Shown here: in pieces, positions 14,113 to 57,960 of the stretch | Numbering within the stretch: position 1 is the first letter of the stretch | Layout: each line of letters starts with the position of its first letter | Assembly (NCBI RefSeq): GCF_001316265.1 | Contig: NZ_BBDN01000003.1 | Coordinates: 1-64,000, forward strand | Source: Vulcanisaeta sp. JCM 16159 | GTDB lineage: Archaea; Thermoproteota; Thermoprotei; Thermoproteales; Thermocladiaceae | Length of the DNA: 64,000 nt | Reading direction: 5' to 3' | Translations under genes and position numbers: made by a program | Notes under the pieces: generated by a model | The model's database searches: none | The model's input: the letters and a program-made list of their open reading frames with translations, nothing else | Told to the model about the DNA's origin: nothing

Positions 14113-15236
14113 TTACGCGGAGTCCCACGGTGGGACGTATTTATCTACTTCATTACCATACACAATACCCAGCACCTCATTGACCCTTTTCCTCAACTCG
14201 CTGGTGTTGTCGGCCACTATGTTTGCGTGGCCCATCTTACGCCTTGGCCTAACTCCGGCTTTACCATACCACCAGACGCTGGTTCCGGGTACCGCCAGTA
14301 CCCTTTTGATAATCTCCTCACTATAAGGTACGCCTAGCATGTTTACTATGCCTGATGGCTTTAGCAGCGTAGTGGGCCCCAGCGGCATGTCCAGGACCGC
14401 CCTCACGTGATTCTCGAATTGACTCACCGCCGCGCCCATTAATGTCCAATGCCCTGAGTTATGGACACGGGGTGCAAATTCGTTAATCAACACCTCCCCA
14501 CTCCTCGTTATGAAGAACTCAACCGTGAGAGCCCCAACGTGATTTAAGGCTTCGGCGAGCTTTATGGCTATTTCCCTAATCTTACTTGCAACCTCCTCAT
14601 TTATCTCCGCAGGGGCTATGCTATATAGGAGGATTCCATTGTAGTGGTAATTCTCGGTTACGGGGTATGTGAGGACCTCACCGCCGCTAGATCTAACAAG
14701 CACTATCGAAACCTCTTTATGAATATTCACAAACTCCTCGGCCAATAATGGGAACTTCCTGGGCACTTTACTTAAGTTATCCCTACCCATCACGTAGTAC
14801 TGGCCCTTTCCATCATAGGCACCCTGGGGTTCCTTGAAAACTACCCTCCCAAACTGCTCAAAGGCCCTATCCACGTCCTCAGGGCTATTAATTATCATGA
14901 AATGAGGCACTGGGAATCCGTGATCCCTAAGGAATGTCTTCTCGCGAATCTTGTCCTGCTTTAGCCATATCGTTAGCGAATTAGGCTTAACTTGCCGAGT
15001 GATTCGGCAGTACTTACCGCGAGAGGGTTCACGTGCTCGAATTCGAAAGTGACTACGTCGGATTTATCCACTAGCTCCTTCCATGAACCACTGAAGTACT
15101 TACCATCAGCCACGCCTAGTGCAGGTGCATCCGGGTTTTCGTCATGTACGAGGAATTTAATGCCTAGTTTCTTACTCTCTAAAATCATCATCAAGCCCAG
15201 TTGTCCACCACCTAGGATACCTAATACCCTACTCAT
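14113..15236 (-). CDS. purK: N5-carboxyaminoimidazole ribonucleotide synthetase PurK (one frameshift)
   Basis: ATP-grasp enzyme converting AIR, bicarbonate and ATP to N5-CAIR. N-terminus [38 protein letters not shown] (ATP-binding lysine and glycine loop); [32 protein letters not shown]. Break near 14960. Downstream of purE on the same strand with a 4-nt overlap, so the pair CAIR synthetase/mutase is coupled. Confidence 0.93.
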
Positions 15237-15718
15237 AGGTTAAGCACCGTGTTCAGCACATCATTCTTCATGGATTCCATTAATTCAATCACCCTGGCCC
15301 TGACGCTTGGGTATTTAATACCAAGTATCCTCGCGGCCAGCAATGCGGCGTTCTTGGCACTACCTATGGCAACGGTAGCCACTGGAGTGCCAAAGGGCAT
15401 CTGTACTATTGATAGTAATGAGTCAAGCCCATTCAAGTGCTTGCTTGGTATTGGTACGCCAATTACTGGCAAGGGCGTCAGTGATGCAGTCATACCCGGT
15501 AGGTGAGCTGCGCCGCCGGCGCCGGCTATTATTACCTCTAAGCCTCTGTCGGGTGCCGTCTTTGCGTATTCGAACATGAGTTCCGGCGTTCTATGGGCCG
15601 AGACCACCCTGGCCTCGTTGGGTATGCCTAATTGATCGAGCAATTCCACGGCCTCCCTCATCACGTCCCAGTCATTTTTACTGCCCATTATCACCCCAAC
15701 CAGCGGTTTTGTGTTCAT
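15233..15718 (-). CDS. purE: N5-CAIR mutase PurE
   Basis: Class I PurE converting N5-CAIR to CAIR. 161 residues, intact. Signatures [82 protein letters not shown]. First gene of purE-purK, divergent from purL across an 88-nt region with two ATTGTTTAA sites. Confidence 0.97.
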
Positions 15719-15806
15719 TATGATTAATTGTTTAAAGAAAATTTTAAAAGTCTTTTTTTCATTATTAACCTAGTATGTCCGTGTATTGTTTAAATAAAAA
15801 AATTAA
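15719..15806. promoter_or_regulatory. purE/purL divergent control region, two ATTGTTTAA sites
   Basis: Exact ATTGTTTAA at 15727-15735 (close to the purE start) and 15785-15793 (close to the purL start). Each is followed by an A/T-rich TATA-like stretch. The same 9-mer, or its reverse complement, is in the purC/purD and purS control regions. Probable purine-pathway operator. The CTTTTTTTC run at 15751-15759 lies between them. Confidence 0.6.
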
Positions 15807-17999
15807 ATGGTGACCGACACCATGCCCCTTAACGATAATGAGAAGTCAATAATTAGGAGGTTCCTAGGGAGAGAGCCAACTCAGGCTGAGTGGCTTGTGT
15901 TTGAGGCTGAGTGGAGCGAGCATTGCTCATACAAAAGCAGTAGGAGGTTCCTCAAGTTACTGCCCAGTAAGGCACCGCATGTGATTAGGGGGCCTGGGCT
16001 TGATGCGCCGCTAATTCGCGTGGGAAACCTAGTGGTTAGTTTCAAGATAGAGAGCCATAACCACCCATCCGCCGTGGACCCTTACAACGGCGCTGCAACG
16101 GGCGTTGGCGGCATTGTGAGAGATATACTAACCACGGGCTTAAGGCCTATAGTATTAATGGACAACCTACACTTCGGCCTATTTAATAATCCTCACTCCC
16201 AGTGGTTAATGAGGAATGTTGTTAGGGGCATCTCAGATTATGGGAATAGGATTGGGGTACCCGTGGTCGCCGGTGAGGCGTGGTTTGATGAGTCGTTCAC
16301 CACGAACCCGATAGTCCTAGTAACGTGTGTTGGCGTAGGCAGACTGGAGGACGCAATACTCGGTGAGGCAAGCCCTGGCGACTTAGTCCTGGTCATAGGC
16401 AATGACGTGGGTAGGGATGGGATGCTTGGCAGCTCTTTTGCATCTAAGGTCCTGGACAGGGATAGAGATGAAATAGGCGCTGTGCAGGTCGGTAACCCAT
16501 TGCTTGAGAAGCTGCTGATCGATGTTGTGATCGAGTTAAGAAGCCGTAGGTTAATTAAGGCGATAAAGGACGTGGGCGGTGGAGGATTAGCCACAGCACT
16601 CAGTGAGCTAGCTGATCAATTCGGACTTGGTATTGAGATTCACCTGGATAGAATTAGGACTAGGGAGGCCATGACACCCGAGGAGATCCTGGTCTCAGAG
16701 TCCCAGGAGAGGTTGGTGATCGTGGTAAGTAGAGACGCCCTTAATGAAGTCGAAGATGTATTGAGGAGGTACGGTGTCGGTTATGACATAGTAGGTACGT
16801 TGACGGACAATGACGGGTTTACGGCTATTACGGTAATGACAAAATCATCGACTTACCCATCAAGTTCATCACCCATGCACCAGAGACTAATTATGACGCA
16901 AAGGAGCCACAGTACCTAAGCAAATTAAGGATAATGCCAGAGTTACCCGAGACGCCACTTGATAAGGCATTAACTAAGATACTAAGTAGCCCAAACATTG
17001 CGTCTAAGGAGCCCATATTCAGCCTTTACGATTACGAGGTCGGCGTTAGGACCGTGATTAAGCCAGGCAGGGCCGGCGCGGCGGTGCTTAGGTTCCTTGA
17101 TATTAATGGGGGTGATGGTAAGTTGGGGATTGCGGTGAAGGCCGACGCTAACCCAAGGCATTCACTCCTTGACCCGTTCATTGGGGCCGCCAATTCCTTG
17201 GCCAAGGCCTATAGGAACGTGGTAGCCGTCAGTGCGGAGCCCCTGGCTGCTGTCGATTCGATAAACGTAGGCAATCCCGAGAAACCTGATAGGTACTGGT
17301 ACTTCGTGAACTCAGTACTGGGGCTTTCCTGGATGGCGCGGGAGCTAGGCGTGCCAATAGTTGGTGGTAAGGTCAGCTTCTATAACGAGGACGTTAATGG
17401 AAACGTGATCAAGCCCGTGGTAGCCGTTGCCGTGTTGGGCCAGGTGAATGATGTTGATAAGGTTGTCGATGGCGGGCTCATCGGTGGTGGGTCAATAATA
17501 ATCATAGGTAATACATCGGCTGAAATGGGTGGGTCTGAGTACCTATATGCAGTTCACGGCATAGTCAGGGGCATACCACCAAGCCAAGGCCGAGAGATGA
17601 AGTTAAAAACTCGAGGACGATCCTTAAACTAGTCCAAGAAGGCTTGGTGAACGCCTCGATGGATGTTGGCGTTGGTGGATTATTAACCACATTAAGTAAG
17701 ATGGCCCTAATTAACGGGGTTGGCTTCAACATCGACTATCCAGGGTACCAACCGATGAATGCGGTATTGACCCAACGGTGCTGGCGTTCTCCGAGACCAA
17801 CGCGAGGTATATTGTTGAGGTTAGAAATGAGGATATTGATAAGGCAACGAGCATTCTCACCAACCTAGGCGTGCTATTTTCAGTAATAGGCAGTTCAGGT
17901 GGTGACTACGTAATAGTCCGCTGGGGCGACCATAAATTAATGACCCTAAAATTAGATGACTTGAAGGCCGCGTACAACTCATTATGGGGTGCGTCATGA
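15807..17999 (+). CDS. purL: Phosphoribosylformylglycinamidine synthase large subunit PurL (three frameshifts)
   Basis: ATP-dependent amidation of FGAR to FGAM, with PurS and PurQ. Motifs: FEAEWSEHCSYKSSRRFLK, FKIESHNHPSAVDPYNGAATGVGG split over the first 100 residues, KDVGGGGLATALSELA, ISESQERL-like VSESQERLV, KADANPRHSLLDPF, GGKVSFYNE. Breaks near 16890, 17610 and 17790. About 730 residues, the short archaeal/Gram-positive form. Its TGA overlaps the purF ATG. First gene of purL-purF-purF2-purM. Confidence 0.94.
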
Positions 18000-19319
18000 T
18001 GTGCGGCATATGGGCATTCCTAGGCCTAATGCGGGTAGTTACGTGGTTAAGGTGTCGCCATGGCTAATTCATAGGGGTCAGGAGGGAGTGTCATTCGTAT
18101 GCCGTATAAATGGATCGCTTATTAAGCTAAGTAATCCCTTAACAACAGATTCAACACTATGCCTTGGACATGCCAGGTATAGTACGAGCGGTCCCTATGG
18201 TGTTGAGCTTCAGCCTATCGTGCTTGGTAATGACTTTGCCCTGGTATTTAATGGCACAATAAGTAACTACATCGAATTAGTCAAGAGACTGAGGGATCTC
18301 GGTGTCGATGTTAGGACGAATTATGATGCCTTGGTTTTGGCCCATTACATGAGGGAATTACTTACTAGGCGGGGTATTGATGGCGGTGTTAATGAGCTTT
18401 TCCACACATTACGTGGTGGCTACTCCATAATAACTATTTGGAAGGATTCCCTAATAGTGGTTAGGGATCCCTGGGGCATTAGGCCTCTTGCTATTGGTAG
18501 TGATGGCAATGGCATAGCCATAGCGTCGGAGACGGCGGCGCTCGAGGCGTTGGGTATGAGCTGGCGTGAGGTGGAGCCTGGGAAGGCCCTTGTGCTACGT
18601 GGGTCTGGTAGGGAGTACTGGATCGAGGGTCCTAGGGTTAGGAGAGCCCATTGCGCGCTTGAGTATATTTACTTCCTAAGGCCCGACTCCTACTTCAACG
18701 GTATTAACGTCTATGAGACCAGGCGTAGACTCGGCATGGCGCTAGCCTGTAAGGAGACCACTCACGACGTCGACTTTGTATCACCAATACCCGAGACCGC
18801 TAGAGTTGCGGCGGAGGCCTACGCAAGTGGTATTGGTAAGCCGATTCATGATGTCGTAATTAAGAATAGGTACGTTGGGCGTGGCTTCATTAAGCCGCTA
18901 GGGAAAGGTCTGCGGACATGTATAGCGTGGTTAAGGATGCGGCCAGGGGTGCATCTATAGCCTTGGTTGACGACTCGATCATAAGGGGCGATACCCTTAG
19001 GAAGGTCCTGCCCAAGCTCAGGGCTTCAGGTGCGAGGGCTATCCACGTTAGGGTCTCCTCACCGCCAATTAGGTACCCATGCTTCATGGGCATGGACTTC
19101 CCAACCAGGCGTGAGTTGGTGGCTCACGGTAGGTCAATAGACGAGGTTAGGAAGTACCTCGGTGCAGACTCCCTAATTTACCTAACGGTTGACGAGCTCA
19201 CGAATGCCATTGGAACCACTGAGCTATGTACTGCCTGCTTCACGGGTAATTATCCATTCACGATAAATATTGACGAGACCGAGATAGCATTCGCAAGTGA
19301 TAGGTTATGGGAGCCGTAG
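17999..19319 (+). CDS. purF: Amidophosphoribosyltransferase PurF (two frameshifts)
   Basis: Commits PRPP to purine synthesis. ATG 17999 gives MCGIWAFLG, placing the N-terminal nucleophile Cys directly after Met; the stop of purL overlaps it. Other motifs: LIHRGQEG, CLGHARYSTSG, FNGTISNY, VRDPWGIRPLAIG, the PRPP loop ALVDDSIIRGDT, and TTELCTACFTGNYP. Breaks near 18030 and 18905. About 440 residues. A second, altered copy follows directly. Confidence 0.95.
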
Positions 19320-19321
19320 GG

Positions 19322-20530
19322 ATGGTTGGCGTGATGTCCTTCCACGATGGTTGGGATGTGAGTGAATTACTGAAATACGCAGTACCGGTGCTTAGACATA
19401 GGGGTAATGATGGCTGGGCCGCAATATTCAGTAAAGGTAGTGGACTAACCACGTTTCAGGTTAAGGAGGGAGACAACGCCTTAAGTGGCGAGGCCGGCCT
19501 ATTGTGCCTTAGCACAAACAGTAATTCCAGAGGTGTGGTAAGGTGTGGTGATGCAGATGTTGGGTATTGTCTCGAAGGCCTCGTAATAAGGCCTGGGGAC
19601 GTGTGTAAGCTGATTGGTGGCGAGATCAAGGCCCTCCCTTACACGTCATTGATTGCCTTAACGAGTAACGGCGAATTGATTGCGTACAGACCCATCACTG
19701 GGTTAAGGAACTTGGTTCTCGGCGCGTACGGCTTCGACCTGGCCATGATAACCAACGAGAGCTCAGCCATAGGTGCACTAGGCGGTGATGTGAGGGCGTT
19801 CATAAGGCCTGGATCAATCATTAGAGTCGATAGGTTGAGTCTCTCGATAATAGAGAACCTCAATAATTCCAGGAGTAAGCTATGTGCCGTGGAGTTCATA
19901 TACTATCAAGGCCTGATTCGGAGGTCGATGGTTACTCCGTCTATGAATTCAGGAGGGTATTAGCGAGTAAGTTGGCTAGGAGACTAATGGATGGAATGAA
20001 CAATTTCGATGTTGTTATTGGCATGCCGGAGACGGGCGTGATCTACGGCCTTAAGGTTGCCGAGGCGTTAAGAAAGCCCTTTGAGTACGCCCTCATGAAC
20101 ATCGAGAGGCGCAGGTCAGCCTTGAGAAAGGACCTTATTGATAAGTTATCTTCCATTCATCTAAAGCTCAGCCCAGTCACCAGTGCGGTTAGGGGTAGGA
20201 GAGTCCTTTTAATCGATGATTCGCTACTTACTGGACTATCCATTAAGGAGCATCCCAAGTCCTTAGGCATAGGGCGGGCGTGAGTGAGGTCACGTGGCCA
20301 TAGCTAGCCCAAGGATAGTTAGGTCATGCCCCTACGGCGTCGACATGCCGCCTAATAATCAATTACTCACCAATACTTTCAATGATGAGGATGCCCAGAG
20401 GGTGCTTGAGGTCGATTCATTAACGTGGTTAAGTCTCGAGGACCTATACGAGGCAGCTGACGAGGTGGGTATCGGCAGGGATGGCATATGCACATACTGC
20501 ATGGGTGGTGAGCGTGGGCTGGACCTATGA
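19322..20530 (+). CDS. PurF paralogue lacking the catalytic cysteine (frameshifted)
   Basis: Tandem copy of PurF, starting MVGVMSFHDG where active PurF has MCG. The GATase domain keeps LRHRGNDGWAAIF but has lost the RYSTSG and NGTISNY segments. The phosphoribosyltransferase domain keeps MPETGVIYGLKVAEAL and the PRPP loop LLIDDSLLTGLS, then CPYGVDMPP and CTYCMGGE. Breaks near 19905 and two near 20250. No single dropped base restores Cys2, so the loss looks real. It may be a regulatory or ammonia-using partner of PurF. Its 3' end overlaps purM. Confidence 0.85.
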
Positions 20531-21514
20531 AAAGGCTGGGGTAAGCTTAGCCAGGCATTGGGAGATGCACTCGGTAGCCCGTGAAGTAATTCATGAACTT
20601 GCCGATGAACTTGGCGTCAGGTTGATGGAGGGTGGCTTTACGAGGTCTATAAACCTGGGCAATTACGAAATAACACTGCACACAGATGGTGTTGGTACCA
20701 AGTCAATGATTGCTTGGTCCACAGGCGGGCTCGAGGTGATTGGCTGGGACTGCGTCGTCGGTAACGTTAACGACATGGCATGCGATGGCTTCGTACCGAT
20801 TGCAGCCACGGACTACATAGCCATATCCAATAATGATGCCGATGCCGTGGGTAAGGTCCTTAAGGGCATTAAGGACGCGGCCGCCAGGGCTGGCGCAGTG
20901 TTGCTAGGTGGTGAGACAGCTATAATGCCTGACCTGGTCAATGGTGTCGACGTCTCCTGTACCGTACTTGGGATTAGAAAAGTCAGGGCAGTGGGTAAGG
21001 CCGAGGTTGGTGATGTGGCCATAGGCATTGAGTCCAGCGGCCTTCACATGAATGGTTACACCCTAGCCCGTAAAGCCCTGTTAGTAGGTACGACTTAAAT
21101 GCTGAGGTCTGTGGCGATGAATTAGCCAATTGGTTATTGAAACCAACGGCCTACTACGGGGACTTGTTGATTGAGCTTTATAGCCGTGGGTTAATCAAGG
21201 CTGCAGTCCACGTGACAGGTGGGGGATTTACTAAGTTGAGGCGCGTTATTGGTGATTTAGGCGTTGAGCTCGAGGTCCCTGAACCGCCATGCATCTTTAA
21301 AGTAATTAAGGACTCAGGCAATATTGAGTGGAGTGAAATGTATAGAGTATTTAACATGGGCGTTGGACTCGTGGTTTTGACGAGTGAGGAATACGCGAAG
21401 GAAGTTGTCAGGGTGATTGAGACGCTGGGCCTTAACCATTGGGTCCTTGGTAGGGTCATTAATGGTGGTGGTATTGATATTTTAATACCAGGCGGCCCTA
21501 GGGTGAGGCTTTAG
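20514..21514 (+). CDS. purM: AIR synthetase PurM (one frameshift)
   Basis: ATP-dependent ring closure of FGAM to AIR. The family start (TYEKAGVSL) needs a GTG at 20505, 20508 or 20514; I prefer 20514. Motifs: LHTDGVGTKSMIA, WDCVVGNVNDMACDGFVPI, GAVLLGGETAIMPDLV, GIESSGLHMNGYTLAR, and HVTGGGFTKLRRV in the second half. Break near 21085 inside the ...GYTLARKAL segment. Overlaps the PurF paralogue, so translation is probably coupled. Confidence 0.94.
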
Positions 21515-21560
21515 GATATGCCGAGTAGCCTATTCATCTCTTCATAGGCTCTGACCACGT

Positions 21561-22229
21561 CTAGGCTGAGGCGCCCCTCCTAAATAATTCCTTATCCAAG
21601 TGCCTGCCGTTGATTAGTATCCTCATGGTATCACCGCTCATCTCATCAGCGAGAACCAAGTTACCTGATTTATCAAAGCCAAACTCCAGTTTAAAATCTA
21701 CGAGTGTTAATCCCCTACTCACCATGTAGTTGCTCAAAATCTCATTAATCCTTAACGCAATGCCCATTATCTCATTCAACTGCTCCTGCCTCGTTAGGCC
21801 AGCCTCTATTATATCGTCAGTGGTTATTAATGGGTCGTGAAGCTCGTCACTCTTCAGGTGAAACTCAACGAGGGGCTTGCTGAACCTCGTCATTGGCTTT
21901 ACTAGAGGCATTCTCTTTAGGAATGAACCGTATGCATAATTCCTTACAATAACCTCTATTGGTATCATCCTAAGGCCCCTCACCAATATTTTCCTATCGC
22001 CATCCCAATCAACCAAGTGATTTCTAATACCGTATTTACTCAGTAATCTCATGAGGAATACTGTCTGGGCCGCGGCTAACCTACCCTTACCAGGCGCTCG
22101 CTCCTTCCTGGCGCCGTCGAATGCCGTGACTTCATCCTTAAATTCCATGATGAGAAGCTCATCATTAACCCTGTAAACCCTCTTGGCCTTACCCTCATAT
22201 ATCAACTCCCCAACCCAATTACTAGCCAT
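21561..22229 (-). CDS. purC: SAICAR synthetase PurC
   Basis: Ligates aspartate to CAIR. 222 residues, intact. Motifs: LIYEGKAKRVYRV, FKDEVTAFDGARKE, GKGRLAA, PIEVIVRNYAYGSFLKR, LKSDELHDPLI, LVDFKLEFGFD, LADEMSGDTMRI. Convergent with purM and divergent from purD across a 184-nt region carrying two operator-like elements. Confidence 0.97.
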   Translation of the reverse strand: MASNWVGELIYEGKAKRVYRVNDELLIMEFKDEVTAFDGARKERAPGKGRLAAAQTVFLMRLLSKYGIRNHLVDWDGDRKILVRGLRMIPIEVIVRNYAYGSFLKRMPLVKPMTRFSKPLVEFHLKSDELHDPLITTDDIIEAGLTRQEQLNEIMGIALRINEILSNYMVSRGLTLVDFKLEFGFDKSGNLVLADEMSGDTMRILINGRHLDKELFRRGASA

Positions 22230-22316
22230 ACATAATCTAAATCTGGCACCGGTTATTTAAGGTTTACTTAATTGATTAAATAAATACCTAGGCTAATACC
22301 GTGATTAACCACCTTT

Positions 22317-22367
22317 ATTGTTTAACTAATTATTTTAACAATATGTTTAATTATTTGATTAAACAAT
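22317..22367. promoter_or_regulatory. purC/purD control region, two TTGTTTAA inverted-repeat elements
   Basis: Element A (22317-22342) runs ATTGTTTAACT...TTTTAACAAT, an imperfect dyad. Element B has perfect 8-bp arms TGTTTAAT (22344-22351) and ATTAAACA (22358-22365) with a 6-nt spacer; the right end reads ATTAAACAAT. They lie about midway between the two starts, in very AT-rich DNA. The same sequence is found in the purE/purL and purS promoters. Confidence 0.6.
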
Positions 22368-22413
22368 TTAAGAATAACAATTATTAAGGGGTACGCAATT
22401 AATTTAATTAATT

Positions 22414-23836
22414 ATGATAAGGAGCAAGGTCCTAATCGTGGGTGATGGCGCGAGGGAACATGCCCTGGCCGCAAGGCTTAGTTCGAGCGTTCACGAGCTA
22501 GGATAAGCGCGTTGGTAATGCATGAAAATCCTGGAATCAAAAGGATCGCGGAGAAAACGGGCGGTGAGTTAATTAAGTCTAGGCTAGATCCAAGTGGCTT
22601 GATCGATACCGTTAATAGGGTTAATCCCGACATCGTGGTTATAGGGCCCGAGGAACCACAGTTCGCCGGCGTTGCCGATAAGGCTATCGAGCTTGGCATA
22701 CCCACCTTCGGGGTTCCTAAGTTGCTAGCATGATAGAACAGAGCAAGGCCTTTGCGAGGAATCTAATGTGGAAGTATAGGATACCGGGTAGGATAGCCTT
22801 TAGGGCGTTTAGGGACATTAACGAGGCATTGCAATACGTATCCAGTGCAGGTTCCGTCGCGATAAAGCCGGCCAGACAAAGCGGTGGTAAGGGCGTTAGG
22901 GTATTCTGGGATAGGCAGGCCTACCTTAGGGACAGCCTCAATAAGGCTAAGGCTACCCAGGTAATTGCAGCGTCAAGCGATGTTAAGGCATACGGCGATA
23001 TCGATGATTTAATAGTCATCGAAGAGGCAGTGAGTGGAGTTGAGTACACGATTCAAGTGATCACCGACGGTAAATCCATCATAGCCCTACCACCAATCCA
23101 AGACCACCCACATGTGTTTGACCATGACATAGGCCCCGAGTGTGGTGGGATGGGGACCATAGTCGGTCCAGGACCCACACTGCCATTTTTAACTCAGGAA
23201 GAGTATGGGGAGAGCATAGAAATAATGAGGAGAACTTTGGACGCGTTACAACGTGAGATTGGCCTTAGGTACACTGGTGTATTGAGTGGCCAATTCATGC
23301 TCACGACGTACGGGCCAACACTCATCGAGTACTACAGTAGGTTTGGTGACCCAGAGGTCCTCAATGCATTGGCAATGCTTAACGGTGACTTACTTGAAAT
23401 CATCGAGGCTGCGGTGAATGGTAGGTTATCAAGCGTCAAGTACTCATTTAGGGAGGGCGTTGTCGCGATCTCGAAGGCCGTGGTGCCCCTGGGCTACCCG
23501 CACAGTAGGGAATTGGCACGTGGAAGAACAATAACCATGGACATGGATAAAATAAGGAAGTTGGGTTGTGAGGTTTACTTTGGCTCAGTAGTTGAGGAGG
23601 GTGGGCTTTACAAAACCCTGGGTTCTAGAGCCGTCGAGGTACTCGTCGTGGGCAGAACGTATGAGGAGGCCTATGAAAGAATCGAGAATTGCGTAGACAG
23701 TATCAAGTCACCTGATTGGCAATTAATACATAGGCGGGATATAGGGGGTAGGGAATTAATTGAGAAGAGGATCAGGGATGCCGAGCGCGTCAGGGCGGTC
23801 TATAGATGGAGAAGAGAACGTGGGTTGGCAGGGTGA
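22414..23836 (+). CDS. purD: Phosphoribosylamine--glycine ligase PurD (two frameshifts)
   Basis: ATP-grasp ligase making GAR. N-terminal VLIVGDGAREHALAARL, then after a break near 22500 NPDIVVIGPEEPQFAGVADKA. A second break near 22725 leads to SKAFARNLMWKYRIPG, KPARQSGGKGVRVF, IEEAVSGVEYTIQVITDGK, GPECGGMGTI, LIEYYSRFGDPE and PLGYPHSRELARG. About 474 residues, somewhat longer than bacterial PurD. ATG 22414 gives a leaderless start just after an A/T-rich tract. Confidence 0.93.
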
Positions 23837-24070
23837 GGATTGATTGGGTACCTGGCGGTGAAATCACCATATACGACTATGCATAAGCGCGCCATTGAAT
23901 AGAGACATGCCGCAGTACGTTAAGCACCATGCGGAGGTGTAATAGGCAAACCATCGCTGAACAACAAGTAGGTGCCAAGCCCCGTACTTGACTGGCAACA
24001 AACCATCATAAATACTTATTCACATAATTCTGCACAACTGTTTTTACCCACAATAATTTATCCTCAGGCC
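23837..24070. other. Intergenic stretch after purD, no recognisable gene
   Basis: Two short open stretches on the plus strand could be gene remnants: about 17 codons after GTG 23835 ending IYDYA, and one ending MPQYVKHHAEV near 23940. Neither is recognisable. The rest to 24070 is AT-rich with no gene I can support. Confidence 0.25.
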
Positions 24071-24280
24071 CTAGCCCCTCGTTTCGAACATCAAGGCCAA
24101 GGTCAGCACGGCGCCTATTACCGAAGCCATACCAAGGAATAGGTAGACCGTGTATGAACCGATAACGAAGAACGTTGGGAATATAAAAGTCGTTACTAGG
24201 ACGCCGGTCCTACCACCAATTACATTGATTACAGGCCCAATACCTCTAATTTTTGTTGGGAGAGAAACAAAGGTATATCG
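24071..24280 (-). pseudogene. C-terminal remnant of an MFS sugar-porter-like transporter
   Basis: On the minus strand an open frame reads LPTKIRGIGPVINVIGG, then a hydrophobic helix with FIFPTFFVIGSYTVYLFLG and ends MFETRG followed by TAG. PTKIRG before TM11 and ETRG after TM12 are typical of MFS sugar/organic acid porters. Nothing N-terminal is found upstream (24281-24356 is too short before purT), so this is a true truncation and not merely a frameshift. Confidence 0.65.
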
Positions 24281-24356
24281 TCAAAGCTCTCAGGGGATCT
24301 CTTAAAATAATGAATATTAGTTTTATTCTTCAAAATATTCGAACCTGATTTATCCT

Positions 24357-25552
24357 TTACCTAACCTTAATTAGTGACGCCGCTAATCTAGCCTTCTCCC
24401 TGGCCTCTTGTACTGTACTTCCCGTGGCTAGCACGATACCCATCCTCCTATGCCTATATGTGAAGGGCTTCCCGAATAACCTAACCTGGACCCCGGGTAT
24501 CCTCAGCGCCTCCTCAAGCCCTACGACCCTAGGCGCCCAGGTCTCGGTATTCGCGAGCACTACGTGGGCCGCAGCCGGCGTTACTAACTTAACCTCAGGC
24601 GTTGGTAGCCCAAGGGCGCTTCTCACGTGTATCTGAAACTCGTTTATATCCGTGCTGACTAACGTGACGAGGCCAGTGTCGTGGGGCCTCGGCGCCGCCT
24701 CGCTGAATAGTACCCTGCCATCCCTAGTTATGAGTATTTCCACACCGTATATCCCAAGCCCTCCCAACTCATTGACGAGCCTAATGGCGTAATCCCTAGC
24801 CTCCTCATTATTTCCTCACTCACCGTGGTTGGGTGCCAGGACTCAACGTAGTAATAAACACCCTCAGGCCTCTGATGCTCTATAGGTAATACCGTGTTAG
24901 TCACCACATTATTGCCCAGCAGGTACCTATAGGTTAGTACTGTTAACTCTCTATCAATCTTCACGTACTCCTCAACCACAACCTTACTACCACTACCCCT
25001 CGCATGGGCAAGGGCCTCCTTGAAGCCTCGCTCGACATCATCATACTTATTGATGAGCACGTGCCCATGCCCGCTGGAACTCATTTCCGGCTTTAGTAGG
25101 CATGGGAAGCCCAAGTCCTTGCACGCCCTCTTCACATCCTCAACACTCTCCGCAAAGAAATACCTAGTGGTTGGTAATTGAAGCTTCTCCGCAGCCAGTC
25201 TCCTCAACTCAATCCTATCCATGCAGATCTTAACGGCCCTGGCGTTGGGCACAACTCTAAAGCCCTCCTCCTCCAGTTCCACGATAGCGTCGGTGTTTAC
25301 TGCCTCTATCTCGGCAATAATCGCATCGGGGCCCTCCCTATGCACCAACGCCTTAATGGCGTTTTTATCGAGCATATTAATCACGTACTTCCTATGAGCA
25401 ACGTGCATTGCCGGGGCCATGTCATATCTATCGATAACGATAACCTCGGCACCCATTCGCTGTGCCTCAATAGCCATCTCCTTACCCAACTCACCACTAC
25501 CCAACAGCATTATCTTCTTGGAACCCATAAGTAGTGGTGGACCAATCTCCAT
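24357..25552 (-). CDS. purT: Formate-dependent GAR transformylase PurT (one frameshift)
   Basis: ATP-grasp enzyme that formylates GAR with free formate, in place of PurN. Motifs: [22 protein letters not shown] in the first 30 residues, [46 protein letters not shown], and after a break near 24818 [26 protein letters not shown]. The ATG (25552-25550) overlaps the purQ TGA, so it is the last gene of purS-purQ-purT. Confidence 0.95.
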
Positions 25553-26231
25553 CACCAACCACCCACGAGACTATCCTTAAGACTAAGCCAAAGCTTTAAC
25601 CCACCAGGCACGAAGCCCCTTGGGGTTAGTACGGCTTCCGCCGACCTCTCTGGGTGCGGCATGAGACCGAGGACGTTGCCTCGTAATTAACCACACCGGC
25701 TATCGAGGCCACTGAGCCGTTTGGATTCTCGCCGTAGTACGTGAAAGCCACCCTGACCTCGTCGACGCTATCTATGAAATATCTACCTTCGCCGTGGGCT
25801 ATGGGCATTGAAACCACCTCATCAAGTGAGTATAACTTAGTAAAGGGTGTCTTAATGTCGTTGACCTTGACCCAAACCCACTTGGCTATGAACCTGGGCG
25901 GATCGTTGGGTAGTAATGCCCCAGGTAGTAATCCGGCCTCGACGAGTGTTTGAAAGCCATTACATATGCCAAGTACGGGTACACCATCCTCCGCATCCAT
26001 GATTATTTCCTTCATCGCCCTTGACCTGGCAGCGATTGCGCCAGCCCTTAGCCAATCCCCATAGCTAAAGCCTCCAGGTATTATAACGGCATCATATATG
26101 CCGTGTCTAAAATCTTCATGCCAAACCAGCTCGGCGTTGATGTGAACCACGTTCTTAAGAATGTGAATTACGTCTAGGTCACCATTAGTACCTGGAAACT
26201 TAATAACAGCCGCCCTAGGCATTCTCAACAC
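25552..26231 (-). CDS. purQ: FGAM synthase glutaminase subunit PurQ (one frameshift)
   Basis: Provides ammonia to PurL. Class I GATase: [17 protein letters not shown], nucleophile Cys in [27 protein letters not shown]. The frame breaks near 25680; the correct frame continues [17 protein letters not shown] with the His/Glu pair and ends GGW-TGA at 25552. The gene starts at 26231 or at the internal ATG 26222, overlapping purS by up to 17 nt. Confidence 0.94.
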
Positions 26232-26487
26232 CCAGTATTAGCAATCTATGGACCGTTGGGTTAAATATCCTAGCCTTCTCACAAACTTCCCTAACGTAGT
26301 CTACGGCCTCCGCACCATCCTTCGCATCAACAATGAAGCCAAGGTACTTACCGCTGATGACCTTATTAACATTACTAAAACCACTGATTGAAACAAGGTC
26401 CTTAAGTATGGTCTCGCCCTCAGGGTCTCGAACGCCCTTAAGTACAATAGCCGTATGAACCAAGTACTTATTCGATACGTTACTCAT
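26215..26487 (-). CDS. purS: FGAM synthase subunit PurS
   Basis: Small subunit that bridges PurL and PurQ. 90 residues, intact. Pattern of the family: HTAIVLKGVRDPEGETI at the N-terminus, KYLGFIVDAKDGAEAVDYVREVCEK in two pieces, and NPTVHRLLIL at the end. Heads the purS-purQ-purT operon; its promoter carries the best copy of the pur inverted repeat. Confidence 0.93.
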   Translation of the reverse strand: MSNVSNKYLVHTAIVLKGVRDPEGETILKDLVSISGFSNVNKVISGKYLGFIVDAKDGAEAVDYVREVCEKARIFNPTVHRLLILGVENA

Positions 26488-26540
26488 TGATTAATTAAAT
26501 GATTAAAAATATTTAAAGATTTCCCTTGAAGAATACCGGT

Positions 26541-26568
26541 TATTGTTTAATTAATTATTTAAACAATA
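26541..26568. promoter_or_regulatory. purS operon operator, 10-bp inverted repeat
   Basis: TATTGTTTAA (26541-26550) and TTAAACAATA (26559-26568) are perfect 10-bp arms around an 8-nt A/T spacer, about 54 nt upstream of the purS ATG. A TATA-like AAAATATTTAAAG (about 26506-26518) lies between it and the start, so the dyad is just upstream of the core promoter. Strongest copy of the motif shared by all pur units. Confidence 0.65.
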
Positions 26569-26661
26569 ATTGAGAGCCGATGCACCATTAAATTTGTTAA
26601 AAACATCATTATTAATGAAATTGAAAATTTAGACGATGGCGCTTTAATTTATTACACTGAC

Positions 26662-44081: not shown

Positions 44082-47000
44082 GAAGGTCCTAGTGATTGGT
44101 AGCGGCCCCATTAAGATTGCGGAGGCTGCGGAATTCGATTACTCGGGGATACAGGCGCTTAAGGCGTATAAGGAGGAGGGCTTAACTACGGTCCTCGTTA
44201 ATCCGAATGTTGCCACAGTACAAACAACGCGTGTATTTGCAGATAGGGTTTACCTGGTGCCCATAAAGCCTGAGTTCCTGGAAATGGTTATTGAGAAGGA
44301 AAGACCTGATGCAATTGCCTGCGGCTTCGGTGGCCAAACAGCGTTGTCGGCGTGCATAAGTCTCAACGATTTGGGAATTCTTAGGAAGTACGGCATTAAG
44401 GTTCTGGGAACGCCAATAGATGGCGTTAGGTCAGCCTGAGTAGGCAATTGTTTAAAGACCTAATGAGTAAGTATGGGATACCGGTACTACCATCAAAGAC
44501 GACGTACTCACTCGAGGAGGCCCTATCAGCGGCCAGGGGGTTGGGCTACCCAGTTCTTGCCAGGGTATCCTTTAACCTAGGTGGTGCTGGTGCCTTCGTT
44601 GCACATGGTGATGATGAGTTAGTTAATAAGTATCATAAGGCATTGGCCATGAGCGAGATTAAGGAGGTTCTCGTTGAGAAGTACATAGGTGGTTGGAAGG
44701 AGATCGAGTTCGAGGTCATGAGGGATCAATATGGGGAGTCGGTGGCCGTGGTTTGTATGGAGAACATAGACCCCATGGGCGTGCACACGGGTGACTCGGT
44801 GGTTGTCGCGCCCTGCCTAACATTAACAAATGACGAATACCAAAGGGCCAGGTTAATATCCATAGGCGTCGCAAACGCGATAAACCTAGTCGGTGAGTGC
44901 AACGTGCAGGTTGCGATTAATCCCAGGGCCCGAGATGTACGTCATAGAGACAAACCCAAGAATGAGTAGATCAAGCGCCCTGGCTAGCAAGGCCTCGGGG
45001 TACCCACTGGCGTACATAGCGGCTAAGCTGACGCTTGGTTATAGGCTAAGTGAGTTGATTAATAAGGTGACCGGCAAGACCGTGGCCGCCTTTGAACCAA
45101 GTCTTGACTACATAGTAGTTAAGATACCGAGGTGGGAGAGCGATAGGTTTGGCATTGATGAGTCCCTGGGCCCCGAAATGATGAGTATTGGCGAGGTCAT
45201 GGGCATAGGGAGGACGCTTGAGGAGGCTTGGCAGAAGGCGGTGAGAATGCTTGACATTGGTGAGCCAGGCCTCGTGGGTGGTAGGATATACCATGAGGCA
45301 AGCATTGAAGAGGCTGTGAAAATGGTTAAGGAGAGGAAGCCCTACTGGTTCCTGTACGCGGCTGTGCTTCTTAGAGAGGGTTTCTCCGTTGATGATATTA
45401 ATGAGTGGACCGGAGTTGATAAGTTCTTCCTTTACGCGATTAAGAGGGTTGTGGATTTCTACGAGGGGTTAAGGAGGGGCGAGCCATTACCGCTTGAGGA
45501 AGCCTACATACTCGGTTTTAGCGAGGAACAGCTAAGGAATGCTCTTGGCGATGAACCGGAGAAAAAAAATTACCCGTGATTAAACAAATCGATACCTTAG
45601 CCGGGGAGTGGCCTGCGGCCACGAACTACCTATACTTAACGCATGGTGGTGAGGTTGATGATGATACAGGGCCTGGCGTTGATGTCGTGGTCGCGGGCGC
45701 CGGTGTCTTTAGGATTGGCGTTAGTGTTGAGTTTGATTGGTCCGTGGTTAATACAGTACTCATGCTTAAGAGACTTGGCTACAGGGTTGGGGTGTTGAAT
45801 TACAACCCAGAGACCGTATCCACGGACTGGGACTTCGCGGATAAACTCTTCTTCGACCAATTAACCCCAGAAACCCTAAGGAACATACTAATTAAGGAGA
45901 GACTCAAGTTAGTGGTTTTATGGCTGGGGGCCAGATTGGGCAGAGGCTTTATGGTAAGGCTAGGTCCTGGCTAATTGAGAATGTCAGGATACTGGGCACG
46001 AGACCGGAGTCCGTGGACCTGGCAGAGGATAGGTCTAAGTTCTCGAAACTACTCGATGAATTGGGCCTTGACCAACCACCCTGGGCCTACGCATCAACTA
46101 TTGAGGAGTTGATAGGCTTGTGGAGAGGTGGCTTGATTACCCAGTAATTGTTAGGCCCAGTTATGTGCTTGGTGGTACGTACATGGGCATAGCCAGGAAT
46201 AGGCAGGAACTACTCAATTACGTTAACAAGGCAGCTAGGATAAGCCTGAGCACCCCGTGGTTGTGTCCAAATTCATCGGTGATGGTATTGAGACTGAGGT
46301 TGATGGTGTTAGTGATGGTAATTCCGTGATCGTGGTGCCCGTGGAACACATAGAACCACCTGGCGTTCACTCCGGCGATAGTACCATGGTAATACCACCG
46401 AGGGGTATTGATTATAGGTTAGATGACAATTGGAGAATTAGAATGGCCGAGGCCTCATTAAGGATAGCCGAGGCACTAAACATTGTTGGACCGTTTAACA
46501 TACAGTTCATTGCCAGGGATAAGCTATACGTGATTGAGGCTAACGTGAGGGCCAGTAGGTCAATGCCCTTCACCAGCAAGGCCACTGGTGTTAACCTAAT
46601 GAATTTGTCCGTAAAGGCTGCATTAAGTGGCCTGGGCATGGATAGGGAATTCATGGTGCTTAGGCCAAGGCGCTGGTGGGTTAAGGCAAGTCAATTCGCC
46701 TGGAGTAGGGTTAGGGGTTCATACCCAAGGCTTGGCCCTGTGATGTATAGTACGGGTGAGGTGGCATCGAGCGGTAAGGCCTTTGAGGAGGCATTACTTA
46801 AGGCCTGGTTATCAACCACGCCATCGAGGATCCCAAGGAAAAAACGCCCTGGTTTACACATATGATGAGCAATACGTTAAGGCAATCGACGAAATAAGAA
46901 AACGCCTGAGCAGATGGCTCACGGTTTTAGATGATACTGGGGAGGTTAGGGCCATGCTTAAACAAGGCTCCGTGGATATACTCATGACTGGGGGCGATAC

Positions 47001-56003: not shown

Positions 56004-57617
56004 TCATTGTATGGAGATTGTTAATGAGGAGTTACGGAGGTAACTTGGGCAAGTATGCGGCCATTCCTCTGTGGATGCGAGTCTTATTATGGCTTTAATT
56101 ATTTCCATCCTTTTCCTCTCACTCTTCGTTTTCTCAAGTTTTCTGCATAGCACCTCAATGACCTGAGCTTTAATATCGCTGTATCTCTCGATGAACCTCG
56201 CCGATATTTTGACGGCCAGGTACTTACCATGCTTGTTTATGCGGGCGTGTAACTCATAGCCATACTTCTTTAACGTATTAATAACTTTATCAGCTTCAGC
56301 TTTATCCTTCACCGGACGAACTAATTCAAATGTACCTTTAAGAATATTTACCGTGAACTTATAACTAGCCACGATAACTTGGGATCCACCTCCTCGCCAA
56401 TTCATCTCTATCTTAGCGATTCTCGTTATTTCGTTCCATTTTTCAAAGTTTAATGCGTCGAGAATGTCGTGTAATATGAGAGATAAGACGCTGATCATAG
56501 CCCTGGCCAAGTCAATGACATAACCACTTAAGAACATTACATGAATAATATTTACATTAGGATATCTATGCCATTTGAATCCCATGTCCCACAGCCTATC
56601 GAGTATTGGCTTCCAATTGCTGAACTTATCACTAGACATGGTTATTATGATCATTGCTTCGTCATAAGTATGACCATTAACAATGATCCTTTGAATATCC
56701 GCACTTCTGTCGCCCAATACGGTGGTGAACATAAACGCTAGTAACTCCTCCATGCTGAGCTTATTGGCATTGCTGAGAAATTAGCCTTTTAAGTGGCTCA
56801 TGACTAGACCTTAATCGCCACTCGATCGCTACGTCACCCTCATTAATATTAACGGCATTTATACGCATGTGAACCTTGCTGGATAAAGCAGCGTCCAAAC
56901 AATTGCTTGCCAAACCTACGTCGTCCCCATGGTAGCCTTACCCCTCTCATTAAAACCATCGGTCTCATCAAATCCGCCCCTCAACGCCCTGAGTACCCCA
57001 TTAACGAACTTAGCATACTCCTCCCTACTCATCGTCTTCATGAACACATCAAGCACTTCAATGATTACGCTCTCAAACCCCTTAAGTTTCAACTGAACCA
57101 TTATGCTGTCATTACTTGCCTTATCTACGCTAAGTGTTATGTATTTTCCATGTACGCTAATTCCCGATATATCATTGCCTCTGATTATAACCTCAGCCCT
57201 TCCACTCACTAAATCTTCGATTAGCCTCTTGACCTCATTGCTAACATCATGCCAGTATTTCCATAACCTCTCATTATAGCTTATGAATTCGTCAACTAAC
57301 CTCAGTATATTGTTGATAACTTCCTCACCATACTTACCTCTCAACCATACTTCTACATTGTTATATATTATCAACAATTTATCCATCCACTCCTCAACCC
57401 ACCACAAGTCCCAAACACGCCAATGCCATATACGTCTAATAGCCTCGATAATCAATTCAACGACATTATTAATAATGTTAGGTTCATCAACCTCACTGCT
57501 ACACACGTACCTCTTGCTCCTTCTCTTACCCATGCAGAAGTGGTTCTTCCTTAATAATTCCGTGTTAAATACCGTAGATTGACCTAGAGCGCTAGACATA
57601 TTATTAATGAAATTCAT
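56004..57617 (-). CDS. PaREP2b-type protein (in-frame stop and frameshifts)
   Basis: Two long open parts belong together: N-terminal 233 residues (VDEPNIINNVVELIIEAIRRIW...KTMSREEYAKFVNGVLRALRGGFDETDG) and C-terminal 249 residues (MEELLAFMFTTVLGD...QVIEVLCRKLEKTKSERKR). Between them TAG 56918-56916 interrupts TT-stop-VWQAIVWTLLYP, and other frames carry KVHMRINAVNINEGDVAIEWRLRSSHEP. This is the order seen in Pyrobaculum PaREP2b proteins. Function unknown; typical of Thermoproteales accessory regions. Confidence 0.7.
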
Positions 57618-57624
57618 AAAACAA

Positions 57625-57960
57625 TTAATAAGGCACTACAGGCATTAAGCCACACACCACAAGCATGTAGTCCAGGTTAAATTCCCCAAGCCATTTGACA
57701 CTAGACTCGGAAGTAGCTTTATGCCCGGTTTTGAACGGTCAATGATGAAGATAACACTCAGCTTCAGGTAACCGTAATCAATTACGAACCTAACATTAAC
57801 CAGGAAGACCTAGGATCCTTAACGCTGGGTCAATCAGTAAGTAAACGTAAAATACCATTCACGAGGTCATATAACGAATCACGGCAATCTCGAATTAATA
57901 TTAAAATCGAATTTAAGGGAATCTGTACCTTAGCATTACTTAGGTGAGTGTAACGAGAAA
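57625..57960 (-). pseudogene. Degenerate open stretch upstream of the PaREP2b gene
   Basis: Minus-strand frames in succession give AKVQIPLNSILILIRDCRDSL, then NVRFVIDYGYLKLSVIFIIDRSKPG, then HKATSESSVKWLGEF and LDYMLVVCGLMPVVPY ending at TAA 57625, 8 nt before the PaREP2b ATG. The parts look coding-like but I do not recognise them; they may be an earlier part of the same element. From 57961 to 58010 nothing is seen. Confidence 0.35.

Follow-up and report, generated by a model that had tools for sequence, protein, structure and literature searches.

A conserved dyad at purine promoters of Vulcanisaeta and a candidate regulator with a phosphoribosyltransferase domain

A 64,000-nucleotide stretch of the Vulcanisaeta sp. 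JCM 16159 genome (positions 1 to 64,000 of contig NZ_BBDN01000003.1; the whole stretch is called the window here) carries five purine transcription units, and we find that the control element of its purine genes is real. Its unit is a 26-bp dyad, ATTGTTTAA-N8-TTAAACAAT, in which 17 bp separate the centres of the two half-sites of 9 bp each. We are highly confident that this cis-element defines a purine regulon of Vulcanisaeta, a conclusion well supported by sequence, fixed spacing, conservation and concentration at purine genes. The dyad would be a purine-regulon operator, and the protein that reads it is probably a little-studied fusion of a helix-turn-helix (HTH) domain and a phosphoribosyltransferase (PRTase) domain belonging to the NCBIfam family NF006328; we call this protein HTH-PRTase.

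The dyad and its copies in the window

Exact copies of ATTGTTTAA or TTAAACAAT lie at 15727-15735, 15785-15793, 22317-22325, 22359-22367, 26542-26550 and 26559-26567, with a one-mismatch half-site at 22334-22342. The only further exact 9-mer in the window is the one that the original prediction had placed inside carB (44447-44455). That prediction, made from the window alone, described one control element, dyad-like in form, as common to all five purine units. The copies do lie where it put them, and genome-wide the element is concentrated at purine genes. Of the window's units, purS and purC/purD carry full dyads. At purE/purL the two half-sites are exact and stand 58 bp from each other, but their second arms are degenerate and reach the inferred TATA box or the start region. 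The arms at purS are perfect, as claimed, but are 11 bp long (26540-26550 and 26559-26569) rather than 10; 54 bp separate the purS ATG from the 26-bp dyad core.

Several nulls bear on how far these copies depart from chance. Allowing one mismatch, the 9-mer occurs 38 times in the window against 18.4 +/- 4.3 times in shuffled sequence, and none of 100 shuffles reaches 38. A dyad matrix trained on 10 sites from promoters non-orthologous to those of the window (one being the purE promoter of the G019 cluster described below) gives its top three scores in the 64 kb to the purS dyad and then to both purC/purD dyads. It reaches at least 15 bits at seven window positions where 0.05 are expected, six of them in pur promoters and one at 57600; 60 simulated windows (Markov-3) gave 18.3 bits at most. 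A harsher null, a Markov-2 model trained on the same AT-rich intergenic DNA, has its 95th percentile at 21.5 bits and its 99.9th at 33.1 bits; the purS dyad exceeds the latter, and the purC/purD dyads fall between the two. The purE/purL sites score below the mean of this null and are unremarkable as dyads, so the evidence there is the exact half-site together with its conservation in seven genomes.

Controls throughout were the pattern read backwards, an imperfect choice since the TTTAA core is lost, which places more weight on spacing, targets and genus limit. The window's own genome holds the exact 9-mer 43 times and the reversed pattern 10 times. Purine-linked promoters account for 13 of the 43; the remaining 30 are single half-sites, 18 within open frames of at least 70 amino acids and 12 outside them, a split that is approximate because of frameshifts. 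Lone half-sites also turn up at unrelated intergenic places. For purS and purC/purD we reject chance in AT-rich DNA on the shuffles, the Markov nulls, the fixed spacer and the reversed-pattern controls together.

Targets within and beyond the genus

At up to two mismatches, all six dyads of the window's own genome lie at five promoters: purS, purC/purD (two dyads), guaA/APC permease A (APC-A), CYTH/APC permease B (APC-B) and a gene of the Xan_ur_permease type. Relaxing the search to three mismatches gives 16 sites against 5 for the control. Among 25 genomes of the family, with spacers of 6-14 allowed, there are 12 exact dyads, all of them in Vulcanisaeta (7 of 12 genomes) and all with N8, and the control has no match. 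When R or Y is accepted at the fourth position and spacers of 0-30 are allowed, the spacer is exactly 8 in 28 of 35 matches; the control figure is 1.

The 12 Vulcanisaeta genomes hold 56 dyads at up to two mismatches, against 3 for the control, and the dyads are present in every genome but G022. All 56 were sorted by their neighbouring genes with tblastn: 39 lie at pur, guaA, purP/PRTase, purine-type permease or HTH-PRTase genes, 10 at the CYTH/APC-B promoter, 2 at a metallophosphatase gene, and 5 have no such neighbour (G014 C1:992396, G016 C4:159534, G019 C9:3784, G019 C13:41932 and G020 C54:2162). Within the genus the dyads are not equally dense at unrelated intergenic regions, and they are conserved upstream of orthologous pur genes, two points on which the original prediction had staked itself; the element also reaches beyond the window to guaA, permeases, purP and the HTH-PRTase gene. 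The APC-B sites are counted apart because the Pfam family is one of amino-acid permeases and the purine link of CYTH/APC-B is inferred from paralogy to APC-A, whose gene diverges from guaA. In one AzgA-like case (G020 C32) the gene lacks its first 195 residues, and in G017 two dyad sites at a purine-type permease overlap one another.

A separate case is G019, whose pur genes are not orthologous to those of other Vulcanisaeta (identity of 37% for PurL, 39% for PurC and about 45% for PurD; 72% for PurT) and stand in a different order. Two dyads nevertheless lie between its purT and purC and one upstream of its purE, and the APC-B dyad is on the same contig; two of the G019 promoters share a duplicated flank, so that their independence is not full. 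The arrangement looks like gene replacement with operator capture, and operators on this non-orthologous cluster would show a regulon capturing replaced genes.

Outside the genus the signal fades. The 33 non-Vulcanisaeta genomes of the order hold 10 dyads at up to two mismatches against 4 for the control, which does not bear out the expected extension to Thermoproteales at large; at this strictness the purine operator is limited to Vulcanisaeta. Caldivirga (G001 and G002) shares the pur synteny, and the top matrix matches of two 19-kb stretches fall near purS and purC/purD, but they score 15-17 bits and we did not count them as conservation. Around guaA in eight other genomes of the family the matrix found no strong match (best 13.3 bits).

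A candidate regulator and its alternatives

The position of the dyads within promoters bears on what a binder might do. In 11 promoters an inferred TATA-like box follows downstream of the dyad, at gaps of 12, 14, 23, 23, 23, 24, 34, 36, 48, 55 and 58 bp; purS, APC-B and two promoters of G019 have gaps of 23-24 bp. In alignments of seven genomes the purS dyad is kept at a constant distance from the TATA-like box while the intervening DNA varies. The TATA boxes and leaderless starts are themselves inferred, with a hand-set TATA matrix searched only 22-40 bp upstream of the start, a choice that in part fixes where the boxes stand relative to the start. Half-sites at purE, purL and the HTH-PRTase gene overlap the inferred TATA-to-start region. 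The upstream dyads would fit an activator, or a regulator touching the basal machinery, and the overlapping sites would fit repression.

HTH-PRTase scores best against NF006328 (PRK08558) among NCBIfam models, at 244.2 bits over a cut-off of 184; three members score 244.2, 237.2 and 234.1 bits, and the profile is matched from position 2, the HTH part lying inside the model. Its second-best model is purR_Bsub (TIGR01743; 89.2 bits, under the cut-off of 258.7), and the GfcR-type model NF002620 gives 35.5 bits, under its cut-off of 115. The closest solved structure is Bacillus PurR (1p4a/1o57; E 7e-18), over residues 82-221, that is, the PRTase domain only. For 14 of 15 members the N-terminal 75 residues gave an HTH_3/XRE match at a lax threshold (E <= 5; best 9.8e-5), and a PDB search with these residues was weak, the best match being archaeal MBF at E 0.01. 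The protein is matched in 24 of the 25 family genomes and at 32 loci of named records, of which 30 are archaeal (including Desulfurococcales, a Sulfolobales metagenome-assembled genome (MAG), Jordarchaeia and Terraquivivens) and the last two are weak bacterial matches. In non-Vulcanisaeta genome G012 a dyad-like match with two mismatches (C72:5687-5712) lies inside the HTH-PRTase coding sequence, probably by chance.

We propose that this candidate is a sensor of the PurR kind that contacts DNA through another type of domain. A 26-bp dyad with half-site centres 17 bp apart would suit a dimer; the binder would carry a lambda-repressor-type (XRE-like) HTH and a purine PRTase domain related to that of Bacillus PurR. 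The PRTase domain would sense phosphoribosyl pyrophosphate (PRPP), perhaps in competition with purine nucleotides; both dimer binding and this switching are drawn by analogy with Bacillus PurR, and if HTH-PRTase is indeed the binder, ligand sensing by its PRTase domain becomes quite likely. Transcription of the genes for de novo synthesis, GMP synthesis, purP and uptake would thereby be coupled to purine supply. The upstream placing of the dyads would suggest chiefly activation, or control that depends on contact with the basal machinery, and the site over the TATA box and start of the HTH-PRTase gene would suggest repression of that gene. We hold only tentatively, as a little short of an even prospect, the fullest form of the proposal: an archaeal PurR in the shape of an XRE-HTH/PRTase fusion labelled adenine phosphoribosyltransferase (APRT), ranging from Thermoproteales to Terraquivivens and Jordarchaeia MAGs, which in Vulcanisaeta would read PRPP or purine nucleotides, act on the synthesis, purP and uptake genes through dyads in helical register with the TATA box, and limit its own production.

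The alternative that survives best accepts the purine operator but assigns it to another factor, for example one of the Lrp, TrmB or another HTH family, and makes HTH-PRTase an APRT enzyme or a regulator of something else, which the half-site in its promoter would mark as a target at most; we consider this a serious minority possibility. Several observations lean toward it and weigh against our proposal. The curated family of which HTH-PRTase is a member is named as an enzyme, where we suggest a transcription regulator, and all 18 aligned orthologs retain DDI[VM]R[TS]GRT at the PRPP loop. No purine gene lies within the flanks of the 32 loci (up to 10 kb, some contigs being short); of the 21 other queries of the purine set, run at E <= 1e-8, only a neighbouring single-stranded-DNA-binding protein matched. 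The gene also occurs in relatives that lack the dyad, and the site at its own promoter is an imperfect dyad outside the 16 sites found at up to three mismatches in the window's own genome. In Caldivirga sp. MU80 (L109 7722-10711) the gene directly follows pyrI-pyrE-pyrD, neighbours that could equally point to a broader role linked to nucleotides or PRPP. The helical register of dyad and TATA box, too, is a weak hint: the gaps cluster at a period of 10-11 with p 0.009 for the 11 promoters and 0.023 without one duplicated promoter. This analysis used 36 of 67 rows, those set aside being orthologs almost identical to others, second dyads, and the rows for AzgA, metallophosphatase, purL and HTH-PRTase.

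Against another binder stand the HTH-like N-terminus found across the HTH-PRTase family and the nearness of its PRTase domain to PurR among solved structures. An exact half-site is present at the promoter of the HTH-PRTase gene in 10 of the 11 Vulcanisaeta genomes compared, G022 having TTAAATAAT in its place. Finally, G024, which is 99% complete and has no purC match, retains HTH-PRTase along with a dyad at a purine-type permease. Taken with these points, HTH-PRTase as reader of the dyad appears to us the likelier assignment.

It is very unlikely that the dyads were merely inherited with the pur cluster, and reflect slow divergence or some structural role, for example as a hairpin in DNA or RNA. 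It is true that orthologs make up most of the copies and that conservation extends to other stretches of the promoters, but the same dyad stands at unlinked guaA, permease and purP promoters and on the non-orthologous cluster of G019, and the purS dyad is kept while the DNA up to the TATA box varies; an RNA hairpin is unlikely because the dyad is upstream of the inferred transcription start at most promoters. Least credible of all is a mere TATA or B recognition element (BRE) signal of strong promoters, alike by composition in AT-rich DNA: TTTAA does resemble TATA, three genes (purE, purL and HTH-PRTase) have the element overlapping their inferred TATA box, and the purE/purL sites are weak as dyads, but the 11 promoters have a separate TATA-like box downstream of the dyad, the spacer of 8 predominates, the sites are limited to the genus (56, against 10 in the 33 other genomes), the target functions are coherent, and the Markov nulls also speak against it.

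Purine genes, related systems and wider meaning

NCBIfam models run on single-frame pieces confirm PurL, PurF, PurM, PurC, PurD, PurT, PurQ, PurS and PurE in the window (Table 1). For purL, alignment with six relatives makes ATG 15822 (MPLN...) the more likely start over ATG 15807. Between 14113 and 28303 the assembly splits the PurL, PurF, PurM, PurD, PurT and PurK pieces into two or more frames, whereas their orthologs are single frames in the complete relatives G017 and G018; genes split in this way probably account for the genome's stated completeness of 63%.

Table 1. Purine genes and control-region features; coordinates are those of the window except for the G019 cluster. Scores are from the dyad matrix.
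Feature	Position	Strand	Remarks
purE, first gene of purE-purK	15233..15718	-	NCBIfam
purL-purF-purF2-purM	15822..22250	+	several frames in this assembly; right end approximate
purC	21561..22229	-	NCBIfam
purD	22415..23836	+	split across two frames
purS-purQ-purT	24357..26487	-	purT split across two frames
purE proximal site	15727..15752		TTAAACAAT half-site on - strand; degenerate second arm overlaps inferred TATA box; 9.4 bits
purL proximal site	15785..15810		ATTGTTTAA half-site fused to inferred TATA box TTTAAATA; degenerate second arm; 5.0 bits
Degenerate dyad-like block by purC TATA box	22259..22284		20.1 bits; kept in 7 genomes
purC/purD dyad 1	22317..22342		1 mismatch; 31.6 bits
purC/purD dyad 2	22342..22367		2 mismatches; 29.8 bits; abuts dyad 1, one base in common
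Second, degenerate dyad on purS start region	26486..26511		21.3 bits; 2 mismatches in G016
purS TATA box, inferred	26512..26519	-	TTTAAATA; 24 bp from dyad in 4/4 purS rows measured
purS-purQ-purT full dyad	26540..26569		11-bp perfect arms, N8 spacer; 41.8 bits
G019 pur cluster	L045 1298-13125		carries Vulcanisaeta dyads

Some further observations concern single sites. The window position 57600-57625 scores 18.5 bits, just over the largest simulated score, at a non-purine position, where an open frame with no Pfam match (56916-57617, - strand) starts. The metallophosphatase gene, which has an inositol-phosphatase-like neighbour, carries a dyad in G020, G023 and, with three mismatches, G021 (L050 1703, L053 1909 and L215 1430), and is a possible further member of the regulon. 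In G014 (L046 1835-3501) a second PRTase that shares 52% identity with the one of PRK07322 type has its own dyad and is followed by a frame that resembles PurP by eye. A different perfect palindrome, ATTGTTTCACGAAAACGTGAAACAAT, occurs away from purine genes on C13 of G019 (L210 1433-1458), and a similar stretch, TTTCACG...CGTGAAAC, lies near L177 500 in the window's own genome.

Several known regulators invite comparison. Escherichia coli PurR, of the LacI family, acts on palindromic operators at purine genes; it and its operator are unrelated to the candidate and dyad described here. Haloarchaeal GfcR (PRK02277, NF002620) is an archaeal transcription regulator with an HTH and a PRTase-like domain and targets sugar-degradation genes; HTH-PRTase would resemble it in this pairing of domains, but falls below the NF002620 cut-off. 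Bacillus subtilis PurR has a winged-helix DNA-binding domain and also regulates purine uptake genes. The resemblance to it would lie in a PRTase-fold effector domain on a DNA-binding protein, here a predicted one, and in a regulon of purine synthesis genes; the differences would lie in the archaeal TATA-type promoter and in an HTH_3/XRE-like domain in place of the winged helix. According to passages of PMC8789054, Bacillus PurR binds paired 14-bp inverted repeats (PurBoxes) upstream of the promoter, one dimer on each, and is released by PRPP; in their account the paired sites lie just upstream of core promoter elements, a likeness to the present dyads, which at 26 bp differ from the 14-bp PurBoxes in length. 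The view that the purine regulator of these archaea would be without bacterial PurR relatives is probably wrong if HTH-PRTase is the right candidate, because its PRTase domain has Bacillus PurR as closest solved relative.

We found no work on a purine regulon or its regulator in crenarchaea in the open-licence PubMed Central literature, subscription papers not being covered. With an operator, its targets listed and a candidate protein named, the control of purine synthesis in these archaea becomes directly testable. If our proposal is true, a family that carries an enzyme annotation in several archaeal groups would be a regulator, and the design of Bacillus PurR, with a PRTase as sensor, would exist in archaea with another DNA-binding domain.

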